Made by a program: the position numbers and the translations under genes. The notes beneath the pieces were generated by a model. That model was not told where the DNA came from, ran no database searches, and was given only the letters and a program-made list of their open reading frames with translations. Below, piece after piece: positions 25,712 to 31,936 of a stretch of DNA of 64,000 nucleotides. Every line of letters starts with the position of its first letter. Within the stretch, counting starts at the first letter, position 1. Origin of the DNA: Candidatus Brocadiaceae bacterium S225. GTDB taxonomy: Bacteria > Planctomycetota > Brocadiia > Brocadiales > Scalinduaceae. The DNA lies in the NCBI GenBank assembly GCA_007859995.1, contig SMSL01000001.1, positions 62,001 through 126,000 on the forward strand, given 5' to 3'.

Positions 25712-25905
25712 ATTTAGCCACAGATTTACACAGATTATCACAGATGTTAAAAACAAAGAAAAATGGATTCACTGCAAGATGCGAAGAGCGCAAAGAGTAA
25801 AAACTATTTTTAGACAGGATAACAGGATAAAGACCGATCCATTCCTAACTCGGAACTCGAAACTTGCAACCCGTAACCCGCAACGCGGTAAACTCGCATC
25901 TCGTT
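25712..25905. repeat. Composite of degenerate dispersed intergenic repeats (left copy)
   Basis: Several short motifs typical of dispersed intergenic repeats follow each other: GCCACAGATTTACACAGAT, a GGATTCACTGCAAGATGCGAA segment, AACAGGATAAAGACCG, and a run of related ACTCG/GCAACCCG words. The same words recur in opposite orientation at 27933-28185 and again at 29521-29655. The remainder of the 25686-26167 gap shows no gene. Confidence 0.55.
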
Positions 25906-26167
25906 TTCCCCTTGCTTTTACTATTTACTAAAGTATTATACCGCTATAGTAACTTACGACCTGTCAAATTGATATACCATTAGATGATGGATATGCTTAT
26001 CATAAATTAAGTTGATTCTGCAAGGACACAGGGACAGCTATCCCTAATACGGGGGTTGTCTTCGGATTCCATATAACTTATCAATTACCAGTTAGCTCTA
26101 ATAAAAAAAGGAACTAAGTGTCATTATGAGTGTTGATGAGGATTGAGACCGTTTATCGCAAACTAAG

Positions 26168-27775
26168 ATGCTGAAGCGGTTGCAATGTAATCTGAAAATG
26201 ACAGATATGCTCACTGTATATCTGTCAGATACTAAAGATCTTCACAGCTACTATATCTATTGTGCGCTAATTCCATCAGATCAAATAGAACGATCCCTTT
26301 CTAACCCATCATGGGATTTCTTGCACGGTGGGGGCATACCTGGTGCTGTTGAGTACTACGAAGGCGGGAAGAAGCGCGTTAAATACCTGCGCTATGGTGA
26401 TGATAATGGGATCGAACCTTTGCTAATTGACCGTGAGTTCTCTGGCATGCGTGATAGTTACAAGGAAATATGTGAAGAGTTTCGACTTTTCCACTGTCTA
26501 TATCATGACAGAAAGCTGGACAAGTACATCAAGATTGATAATGAAGGTAACGAGCATCTGATAGCTATCGTTTCTACGAAGCATATACAGATAAGGCTCA
26601 AGGAAATTTGTCAGTTTCTGGCAATAAAGGAAATGTACCTATCAATTCAATTCGACTGCCGAGAACGCTCGGAGTACTCGTTGGAAGAACTTGAACCTAA
26701 GCAGGATGATGATCAGTGCAAAGATCTTATGTGTTGGCGGCATAACTACGGAGCGGATTCTGGCATTGGTAATCATCAATCGTTTAGTCGGTTGCATGGG
26801 AAACGACTCGTTGCCCCATTACCGAAATCTAAGAGCGTCTTCTGGGGATTTGCGAAAGAACCGGAAAAGAAGTATGTTGCATTTATCATTGGTGTTGATA
26901 AGGACGGAGAAGAAATTACAAACACATCGAACCCGTGTGTTCTGGCTAACAATTTTGGAGCGAATCCGAATGCACCCAATTACTTAACCCCTGTGCACTT
27001 CCACAAGCAAGTATTAGACAAGTACTACCAACAGCCCAGTAAGTACTCAGTAGAGGAGTCGATTCTGCATTGTGGCTACTTGTGGAGTATTTATATCGAC
27101 AACCATCACGAGGATAAAGTCTGCGCATGGTTAGGCGATCTCGGACGAGATCTTTCTTACGAAGATCAACTACACTGGCGGACACACAATATTCTTCCAG
27201 AAGGTGGTATGAGTGAAACCTATTTTAAGAACCAGATCATGGCCCAGTTCGCTGATTCAAATAGGCCAGAACACTTGTTTAGACAACGCTATCATGATTT
27301 GCAAAAGGTGTGTGACGAATGTCTTGATTGGCAGTTGTTGCTGCCATTAGGTGCTGACGACGCGTACCACTTACAGTGCTTGAGAATACCTGCTACTGAT
27401 GAGCAGCGCGATTTTGACGAGTTGGTTTTGAGCCTCACAAAGATACTGATAGATTCACTAAACGAAAAACATTTGAATAAGTTGATTTCTGAGAAGCAAA
27501 ATGACAGATTTAAGGGTAGCATTGCACGTCTAGAAGCTGCTCTTAGCACCTGTGGTGTTGAAGGTGTCGTTAATCCGGTTCCATTTCTGCGTAAACTCCA
27601 AAATCTACGATCTAGCAGTGCTACACACCGTAAGGGCAGCAACTATAGAAAAATCGCCAATGACTTCGGTGTTGAGAGTAAGAACTTGCGATCGGTGTTT
27701 TCTGGAATTCTCTGGCAAGCAGTAACTGTGCTTGACAATTTCATTTCTGTGGTGCGTAGTGGAAAAATCAAATGA
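26168..27775 (+). CDS. Unrecognised 535-aa protein with C-terminal Rx5H motif (candidate HEPN)
   Basis: I recall similar lone proteins in scattered bacteria but know no function. No signal peptide or membrane segment is seen. The N-terminal half is beta-rich with conserved-looking segments (LIDREFSGMRDSYKEICEEFRLFH, then IRLKEICQFLAIKEMYLSIQFD). The middle has HNYGADSGIGNHQSFSRLHGKRLV and DNHHEDKVCAWLGDLGRDL. The last 110 residues look all-helical and contain LRSSSATHRKG, an R-x5-H pattern like the HEPN RNase motif. It stands alone between inverted copies of degenerate repeats in an island with integrase and intron remnants. Codon use looks more GC-rich than its neighbours. A defence or abortive-infection role is inference. 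The start is uncertain because no ribosome binding site is evident. Confidence 0.6.
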   Translation: MLKRLQCNLKMTDMLTVYLSDTKDLHSYYIYCALIPSDQIERSLSNPSWDFLHGGGIPGAVEYYEGGKKRVKYLRYGDDNGIEPLLIDREFSGMRDSYKEICEEFRLFHCLYHDRKLDKYIKIDNEGNEHLIAIVSTKHIQIRLKEICQFLAIKEMYLSIQFDCRERSEYSLEELEPKQDDDQCKDLMCWRHNYGADSGIGNHQSFSRLHGKRLVAPLPKSKSVFWGFAKEPEKKYVAFIIGVDKDGEEITNTSNPCVLANNFGANPNAPNYLTPVHFHKQVLDKYYQQPSKYSVEESILHCGYLWSIYIDNHHEDKVCAWLGDLGRDLSYEDQLHWRTHNILPEGGMSETYFKNQIMAQFADSNRPEHLFRQRYHDLQKVCDECLDWQLLLPLGADDAYHLQCLRIPATDEQRDFDELVLSLTKILIDSLNEKHLNKLISEKQNDRFKGSIARLEAALSTCGVEGVVNPVPFLRKLQNLRSSSATHRKGSNYRKIANDFGVESKNLRSVFSGILWQAVTVLDNFISVVRSGKIK

Positions 27776-27932: not shown

Positions 27933-28185
27933 CCTTGGTGTTCTTAGCGTCCTCGCAGTGAATAGTCATTTGCCTTTTTTTCTGAGTTTCATGCTTTCCT
28001 CAGCTAAATTTTTGCCTCTTTTTGTCTTTTACATCAGTGTCTATCCGTGTAAATCTGTGGTCAAAATTTTCCCTCCTTATCCTCGGCCCCTTTTCATTTT
28101 TTATTTCTACCAACTGTCACTTCTCATTAGTCTTTTCACTCCTTATTAATCTTCAAAATCTGCGTTAATCTGCGTTCAACTTTTC
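27933..28185. repeat. Composite of degenerate dispersed intergenic repeats (right copy, inverted)
   Basis: CTTAGCGTCCTCGCAGTGAA, CTATCCGTGTAAATCTGTGG and AAAATCTGCGTTAATCTGCG are inverted relatives of the words at 25712-25905. Together the two blocks bracket the 535-aa gene. The 27776-28225 gap contains no gene. Confidence 0.55.
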
Positions 28186-28986: not shown

Positions 28987-29349
28987 TCAAGTACAAACAA
29001 ATTTATATCTCTGAAGCATTTCCCTGGATAACCCTTGCGAAAATAACTCTTCCAGCCAATCAGTTATGCGTCTGCCAATATAGCGAACCATTACGACAGA
29101 GTCATCCGCATGACGGATCAGACGCGCATTTGCAAAGTATAGCGGTGAATCAGGTGGACAGTGAAAAGCCTTGTCCATCTCATTGAGAAAAATGTTGGCG
29201 AGCAGTGGAAAAATCACGCCACCCTGCGGCGTTCCGCATATTGGCTTTGTGAGTTTAAAGACCCCTCTGCTCCCATTACAGATAGCGCAGTGTTTCGCGT
29301 GTTTCATCACTTTCACACGCCAATGCGCAGCTAATTGGAGAATAAACAA
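28987..29349 (-). pseudogene. Fragment of group II intron reverse transcriptase
   Basis: About 120 residues of a LtrA-type reverse transcriptase remain. CGTPQGGVIFPLLANIFLNEMD is RT motif 4, and RLIRHADDSVVMVRYIGRRI is motif 5 with the catalytic YADD changed to HADD. RT motifs 0-3 upstream and the maturase (domain X) and thumb downstream are missing or out of frame. With domain V about 160 bases downstream on the same strand, this is a 5'-truncated, dead group II intron. Confidence 0.8.
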
Positions 29350-29745: not shown

Positions 29746-30869
29746 TTAATTGATTGAATTATTTACGATTTTTGGCGAGAAGGCATGGTTTGCCGATGTG
29801 CTTATATTGTGCTTGTCCACATCCTCCATTTGTCTCTCAAGAGCCTTAACAGCGTTCATTTTCCCCTCAGTAGTTGGATGTGCATAACGCATCGTCATCT
29901 CGATGCTGGAGTGCCCTAATATCTCTTTTACCGTTACTAAATCAACCCCACTCATCACCATCATAGTCGCTGCCGTATGTCTCAAATCGCGAAAGCGCAC
30001 ATCGACTAATCCAGCCCTTATCAATGCTTTGCCAAATGTAGTTTTGATAGAATGAAAAGGTTCTCCAGTCTTAGTATCGCAAAAGAGATATTCAGAATTT
30101 CTTTTTATATTATCTATAGTTTTAATGACAAAACCATTCATTGGTATATTTCTATTCTCATTGCTTTTAGTTTGAGTAACAATAATTATATTTCTATTAA
30201 AATCGATACGACTCCATTTTAAATATAAAACCTCTCTCAGCCTCATGCCGGTATTCAATGCTAATATGACAATAGGCTTTAAGTGGTCGTTACACTCAGC
30301 CAGTAGTCTTTGTATTTCTTCAGATGATAGAATCCTCTCCTTCTTGTTATCCTCTTTGAAAAACTTCACTGCCTTAACCGGATTAGAATCTGCCTCACCA
30401 TCTCTTATAGCCATGTTAAACATTGCTTTCAAAACAGCCAGTTCTCTATTGATAGTAGCCTTGGCAATCGGCTTCTTTGACATCCTTGCTACCTTTTTAC
30501 CTCTCTCAATCTTATATTTCTCAATTAGACACGGTGTGATCTTTGATAGTTTATATCCTTAAAGAAAGCAGACAAAGCCTTGAACATGGTCACGTCTGTC
30601 TCATAAGAACGCTTATTAGCCTTTGAGTACTCCAAATATACATTTGCATAGTCCTCAAATTTTGGACTCTTTGTGTCATGTCTAAGACCGTATTTACCCT
30701 GGACAATTTCTCCCGTTACCGCTTTATATGCTTCCTCTGCAACCCGCTTATTAGAACTAACTGCCTCTCTTATTTGTTTGCCTTCAAAATAGTAGCTGAT
30801 ATGCAATTTTTCAGACTCAACAATCTTACCTGATTTCCTATCACGATATTTTCTTTTGTATACACTCAT
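29746..30869 (-). pseudogene. Tyrosine-family integrase, split by a frameshift
   Basis: Two reading frames make one integrase of about 370 aa. The first (30869-30525) holds the N-terminal Arm and core-binding parts (MSVYKRKYRDRKSGKIVE; FEDYANVYLEYSKANKRSY). The second (ATG at 30483) holds the catalytic domain with all residues: Arg in NTGMRLREVLYLKW, HxxR in LRHTAA, His in LGHSS and nucleophile Tyr in MRYAHPT. Between them the second frame reads KITPCLIEKYKIERGKKVARM, so one missing base near 30548-30551 breaks the gene. It flanks tRNA-Thr. Sequencing error or programmed shifting are alternatives to a dead gene. Confidence 0.85.
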
Positions 30870-31423: not shown

Positions 31424-31636
31424 TTATGCAAATGCAAGCCTATGACCTTTGGGTTCAGGGATAGAATCTCCAAATTCTTTGGCAGTTCTTATCCAAAGTT
31501 TCATTGCCGATTTCAGGTTTGTCAAGGCTTTTGAGTGTGTATCACCATGGGCAATACACCCAGGCAATTCTGGTGCTTCTGCAACAAAAGCGTTATCTTC
31601 TTTACTCCAGTAAATAATAACATCATACTTATCCAT
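31424..31636 (-). CDS. hicB: HicB-family antitoxin
   Basis: The 70-aa protein is the partial RNase H-like HicB domain: YDVIIYWSKEDNAFVAEAPELPGCIAHGDTHSKALTNLK and a C-terminal helix ending IPEPKGHRLAFA. HicB binds and blocks the mRNA-cleaving toxin HicA and represses the operon. The ribosome binding site is AGGAG, 9 bases before the ATG. Many HicB proteins carry a C-terminal DNA-binding domain; this short form does not. It follows a broken hicA gene, with their reading frames overlapping, so it is an antitoxin without a working partner in this window. Confidence 0.85.
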   Translation of the reverse strand: MDKYDVIIYWSKEDNAFVAEAPELPGCIAHGDTHSKALTNLKSAMKLWIRTAKEFGDSIPEPKGHRLAFA

Positions 31637-31888
31637 TAGACTTAACTCCTGACTTATATTTTAAAATAACATTTCTAACTTGCCGAACTTGATAAGGTGA
31701 CCTTGTTGCCTTCTTTTTGCAAATTGATCTTTTCCAATACTCCTTCTTTCCTAAAAGATATGATGACTTCCACTTACTCTTTTGTCGAAACCAAATCTTT
31801 TCATTAACCCTACTAAATCCTGGAAATTGATATTAGCATCTGATTGGCCTTTCAGTATTTGCATTAAAAGTTTTTCTTGCTTCCCCAT
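31629..31888 (-). pseudogene. hicA: hicA toxin pseudogene
   Basis: The frame starting MGKQEKLLMQILKGQSDANI reaches LVGLMKRFGFDKRVSGSHHIF, the HicA dsRBD-like fold with its catalytic His in GSHHIF, then hits a stop. One extra T in ATCTTTTAGG explains it: the next frame continues RKEGVLEKINLQKEGNKV, and a second indel restores PYQVRQVRNVILKYKSG, a normal HicA C-terminus overlapping the hicB start. Two indels indicate genuine decay rather than a single sequencing error. An upstream in-frame ATG at 31936 is less likely to be the start. Confidence 0.75.
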
Positions 31889-31936
31889 TGTTTGCTTACT
31901 CTTTAATCGTATTTGATCACCATCAACTCTTGTCAA

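Follow-up and report, generated by a model that had tools for sequence, protein, structure and literature searches.

A candidate single-protein sensor and HEPN RNase gene in a decayed island of Candidatus Brocadiaceae bacterium S225 and its scattered family

The gene and its parts

The window analysed here is a stretch of 64,000 nucleotides of Candidatus Brocadiaceae bacterium S225 (GCA_007859995.1, contig SMSL01000001.1, positions 62,001 to 126,000) and carries, as an earlier note on this DNA had described, a lone open reading frame (ORF) of 535 codons including the motif LRSSSATHRKG (Table 1). The encoded protein belongs to an unnamed, widely scattered family of bacterial proteins and is predicted to combine an N-terminal sensor with a C-terminal HEPN RNase domain. 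Both parts are linked by a central region, whose conserved block is characterised by the motifs KYY..P.KY, C..LW..D, and LGDLGRDLP..EQ.HW...N..P.

Not mentioned in the earlier note is an additional in-frame ATG at 26126, with a TGA in the same frame downstream of it (26144-26146). The sequence that this stop breaks up, MSVDED*DRLSQ, is similar to the N-terminus of homologues, e.g., that of Allochromatium (L001). Due to this stop codon, the copy of the window may begin internally at 26168 or may be decaying.

Table 1. Features of the gene and its surroundings (positions within the window)
Feature	Position	Strand	Remarks
Whole ORF, predicted sensor and HEPN RNase protein, 535 amino acids	26168..27775	+	ATG start; homologues 63% down to ~20% identity
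Upstream in-frame ATG and TGA	26126..26146	+	Interrupts N-terminal ~14 residues present in homologues
Residues 1-219, alpha/beta domain	26168..26824	+	Structural match to Avs3 C-terminal part (8dgc_B 1863-2076)
Residues 220-365, central region	26825..27262	+	Strongly conserved block; predicted local distance difference test (pLDDT) <50 over 226-363
Residues 366-535, helical HEPN-like domain	27263..27772	+	pLDDT 86.4, predicted template modelling score 0.85
R481-x5-H487, predicted RNase active site	27608..27628	+	Near helix end and next loop
Inverted repeat, left arm	25713..25757	.	Dispersed repeat copy
Inverted repeat, right arm	28021..28065	.	Dispersed repeat copy
Reverse-transcriptase remnant, intron type	28987-29349		By eye
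Tyrosine integrase, split into two ORFs	29746-30483, 30525-30869		By eye; beside tRNA-Thr(CGT)
Short HicB-like ORF and early-ending HicA-like ORF	31424-31936		By eye

The predicted HEPN domain and the N-terminal domain

Helix prediction covers the last ~170 residues, in agreement with the helical end of 110 residues proposed earlier, and the codons of R481 and H487 occupy 27608-27610 and 27626-27628, respectively. When the last 110 residues were shuffled, Rx4-6H was present in 36% and Rx5H in 14% of the shuffles. This chance occurrence of 36% rules out a significance of the motif in a single sequence, and the weight thus rests on conservation rather than on the presence of the motif. Among 14 homologues with identities from 63 to 20%, R481 and H487 are the sole invariant Arg and His. 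A broader alignment comprised 64 segments, of which 12 do not span the active site and were left out; in the remaining 52, judged by alignment column, the Arg is conserved in 52 and the His in 50. The two exceptions are L052, with an R-x4-H shifted by one column, and L080, with Tyr. Hence both residues, on whose conservation among homologues the earlier note had made its reading depend, are kept. The spacing between them is mostly 5, in some members 4, and in four members 6 (L005, L069, L072, and L073), all of which is covered by the Rx4-6H range given for HEPN RNases in the available part of PMC3710099.

In the model of the C-terminal domain, R481 is part of a helix (470-484) and H487 is situated in the following loop, succeeded by a short helix (491-499) and a last helix (507-531). 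This placement corresponds to the end of helix 3 or the start of the loop before helix 4, where the same source locates the HEPN motif. Two secondary features described there are missing: the residue after the Arg, in HEPN mostly N, D, or H, is mostly Ser in the family, and visual inspection of the alignment revealed no conserved acidic Ex3[KR] (PMC3710099, available part).

The top four Foldseek matches of the C-terminal model are to HepS of the Gifsy-1 prophage, a HEPN protein whose structure was solved in complex with the lambda J tail tip. The fold lists also contain EFTS-ASPA, Roquin, vinculin, gp41, and lyases, some of them ranking above the HEPN rows; these were treated as unrelated folds and not as kin. 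Against the viral structure library, E values of 0.001 or better were not reached, and none of the 50 rows listed had a probability >0.30. No HEPN family of Pfam was matched. Profile comparison by hhalign with small sets of HepT (10) and ApeA (3) sequences remained at background. Two HepT subfamilies do recognise each other by this method, but ApeA and HepT are equally at background towards one another, so the comparison lacks the power to decide. The C-terminal part is very probably a HEPN effector.

According to the predicted structure, residues 1-219 share their fold with the C-terminal part of Avs3. Avs3 is a protein of >2000 residues with nuclease and NTPase parts; unlike Avs3, the family protein has no detectable NTPase and carries the HEPN-like domain in its place. 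P-loop NTPase families were absent from Pfam and PADLOC searches of 14 members at E values up to 1, and a sequence search of the PDB gave no Avs3 match at E values up to 10. When 369 genomes were searched for other architectures with the N-terminal domain, nothing was found beyond family members and a match of 43 positions in a 56-residue frame. The chances that this domain is of the Avs3-type sensing kind appear about even.

Distribution and genomic settings of the family

The closest homologues occur in Allochromatium (63% identity) and Candidatus Poribacteria (46-58%). With the query genome counted throughout, matches were obtained in 7 of 59 relatives, 1 of 13 within the genus, 7 of 62 of the order, and 10 of 392 sampled genomes of the phylum. 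In the class of Allochromatium 5 of 369 sampled genomes were matched, three of them by distant relatives of ~590 residues, as were 39 of 84 genomes in the phylum to which the Poribacteria locus L004 belongs. Plasmid matches (13 of 72,556 records) derive from Pseudomonas, Rhodococcus, Streptomyces, Moraxella, and Halobacterium. None of the 50,697 phage records was matched by any of three family members; in predicted viral contigs seven loci were found with the alignment as query and none with the window protein alone. Eleven of 5,426 E. coli genomes contain the L082 gene, in each case with an identity of >=99%; ten of these genomes are OkiPb strains from bovine faeces and perhaps close kin. The patchy presence, together with 63% identity across distant bacteria, suggests horizontal transfer.

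Searches of Pfam, PADLOC, NCBIfam, and PHROGs with the family returned nothing or weak, inconsistent matches. PDB sequence matches to a homing endonuclease, CpxR, and WipA were dismissed as noise, and the other PDB sequence searches were empty or noise as well. Four homologue accessions are not mentioned in the literature searched, a search whose reach excludes supplementary tables.

Variants of the architecture occur as well. L038, L077, and L079 are long forms with an additional C-terminal extension of ~230 residues that has no Pfam match, whereas L085-L088 represent a shorter form of ~280 residues, consisting of the central and HEPN parts only (R-x4-H); L085 and L086 are situated among phage-morphogenesis-like genes, as judged by eye. 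In Poribacteria the HEPN part alone is found in open frames of ~178-316 residues (L081 and places such as G867:C1:2855922-2856425), and several Poribacteria genomes contain more than one match, some being fragments of one gene.

In the two of the 11 E. coli copies that were read, the homologue lies alone and on the opposite strand in a P2-like prophage, with gene V of the baseplate on one side and, on the other, a phage virion morphogenesis gene that we take to be S. As described in the available parts of PMC3091744 and PMC6823313, P2 orf30 lies between V and S, one of three loci of acquired genes in P2-like phages; the P2 defence hotspots in the parts available of Vassallo 2022 and Rousset 2022 are at other positions. 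In P. syringae the homologue comes after gamma-mobile-trio genes. On a P. aeruginosa plasmid it precedes genes for SAVED, nucleotidyltransferase, ThiF, and Mov34 proteins, resembling a cyclic-oligonucleotide-based anti-phage signalling system, with a transposase in between; the SAVED effector was confirmed by PADLOC. A HepT gene is located <=1 kb from the homologue in G037, and Dnd-like genes were recognised by eye near L003.

A type IIG restriction enzyme and an HKD-SNF2 helicase are situated near the homologue at L042, a locus of the window's own order, and, by eye, at the Poribacteria loci L097, L104, L108, L109, and L111; PADLOC confirmed the pair at L042 and L097. Among 107 neighbours of 19 non-independent loci, eight matched the PADLOC model PDLC03612 (REase_MTase_IIG), from five or six loci, some with several ORFs, while in the control (118 proteins from 20 regions of seven genomes, five of them shared with the test set) no type IIG model exceeded one match. 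These figures compare the best 25 of 63 models with the best 25 of 61 in the control. Due to the presence of Cas, AbiE, and restriction-modification models in the control list as well, among them four type IIG models with one match each, a general enrichment is not proved.

Further neighbours were seen at several loci. L004, L100, L110, and L112 share a neighbour starting with IPKAFFAYPS..., for which the sole member scanned (L004) gave a weak Nuc_deoxyrib_tr match below the cut-off. An AAA ATPase gene (PD-T4-4_A/AriA-like in PADLOC) and a small ORF are found directly upstream of the family gene at L101 (5918-7901), and an AAA ATPase gene, assigned by eye, with a small ORF ~1 kb upstream at L001 (5135-6873). 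The neighbours of L048-L050 were read in part.

The surroundings in the window are those of the decayed island described earlier, with integrase, excisionase-like stretch, HicAB, and intron remnant, all named by eye, in contrast to the nearby tRNA-Thr. The inverted repeat on both sides of the gene exists too, with arms of 45 nt that are 80% complementary. Its core, however, has three copies in the window at <=3 mismatches and nine in the genome at <=2 mismatches, versus none for a reversed-pattern control, and due to this dispersal the arms, between which the earlier note had placed the gene, are no specific border of it.

Proposed function and alternatives

The conserved Arg and His, the predicted helical C-terminal fold, the structural match to Avs3, and relatives in prophages, in mobile islands, and beside defence genes support the earlier proposal of a sensor and HEPN effector in one defence protein. 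We consider a single-protein abortive-infection system with an Avs3-like sensor and a HEPN RNase the preferred reading, at a probability of roughly 0.55, and a role in defence as such likely. The N-terminal domain would recognise a phage component, the central region would link this sensor to the HEPN domain, and the activated HEPN dimer would, as HEPN biology suggests, cleave RNA via R481 and H487, halting the cell before phage release. The protein thus probably makes infected cells shut down.

Decay of the gene is suggested by the upstream stop codon and the decayed neighbours, and with its restriction to one of the 13 genus genomes it could be a remnant or non-defensive copy of a family with some RNA-processing task. 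Nevertheless, 535 codons remain open, the similarity to the Allochromatium protein is as high as 63%, the active-site residues are retained, and a patchy distribution is ill-suited to housekeeping, which renders this explanation rather unlikely. Of the 24 loci read (L001-L005 and L095-L113), seven have a PIN-like gene whose start overlaps with the stop codon of the family gene, namely L002, L003, L095, L096, L102, L105, and L106; PIN was identified by Pfam for L002 and by eye for the other six. This overlap and the occurrence on plasmids fit a role in the stabilisation of mobile elements, as a toxin or as one component of a toxin-antitoxin pair, the HEPN domain being controlled by a partner gene instead of by phage sensing. 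We regard this as improbable, given 17 of the 24 loci without a PIN gene by eye, the lone copy in P2-like prophages, and a protein of 535 residues whose large conserved N-terminal and central parts are unlike compact toxins of such pairs. In L002 and L003, the family protein is extended at its C-terminus by a tail that may be a fused antitoxin tail, with a VapC-like toxin next to it. A fail-safe effector acting as accessory subunit of a restriction-type island would explain the recurrence of the type IIG and helicase pair. It is improbable as well, since this pair is missing near the copies of the window, of P2-like prophages, and of the gamma-mobile-trio island.

Going beyond the preferred abortive-infection reading, one may speculate, doubtful as it is, on a minimal Avs: the Avs3 C-terminal domain, freed from the NTPase of the signal transduction ATPases with numerous domains and joined to a HEPN RNase, would as a ~60-kDa protein sense a conserved packaging protein (terminase or portal) and cut RNA, constituting a widespread undescribed defence family found even at the P2-like orf30 locus.

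Among known systems, ApeA is likewise a single protein with a C-terminal HEPN domain, preceded by a mostly beta N-terminal part of ~300 residues with conserved aromatics (PMC3710099, available part). Strands and conserved aromatics also occur in the N-terminal part of the family but, unlike ApeA, none of 14 full-length or 12 C-terminal members matches HEPN_Apea (PF18739). Tha of S. aureus prophages is, by the available description in PMC11087260, a prophage-borne single protein lacking an N-terminal domain discernible by sequence and ending in a HEPN domain with RNSIMH. It differs by its length of 301 residues, its triggers, minor tail proteins, and its control by an overlapping inhibitor gene. 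DS-11 combines HEPN and a separate regulatory domain in one defence protein (PMC13092281, available part); its regulatory domain is CBS, which was not found in the family protein. For an MNT-HepT toxin-antitoxin system, a HepT match in the protein and, by eye, an adjoining MNT gene in the window are lacking. Analogy suggests that the protein may work like ApeA, Tha, and DS-11, as a single protein with a HEPN effector, a likeness that does not amount to membership in any of them.

The family extends over several phyla, plasmids, and an E. coli prophage and went undetected in the searched libraries of Pfam, PADLOC, and NCBIfam. It now gains a concrete predicted catalytic site and a sensor hypothesis, the combination of domains being unexpected and the kind of system known. 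The E. coli prophage copy makes the defence hypothesis easy to test. Should the Avs3-like domain indeed recognise proteins of phages with no NTPase involved, it would represent a portable module for phage recognition.
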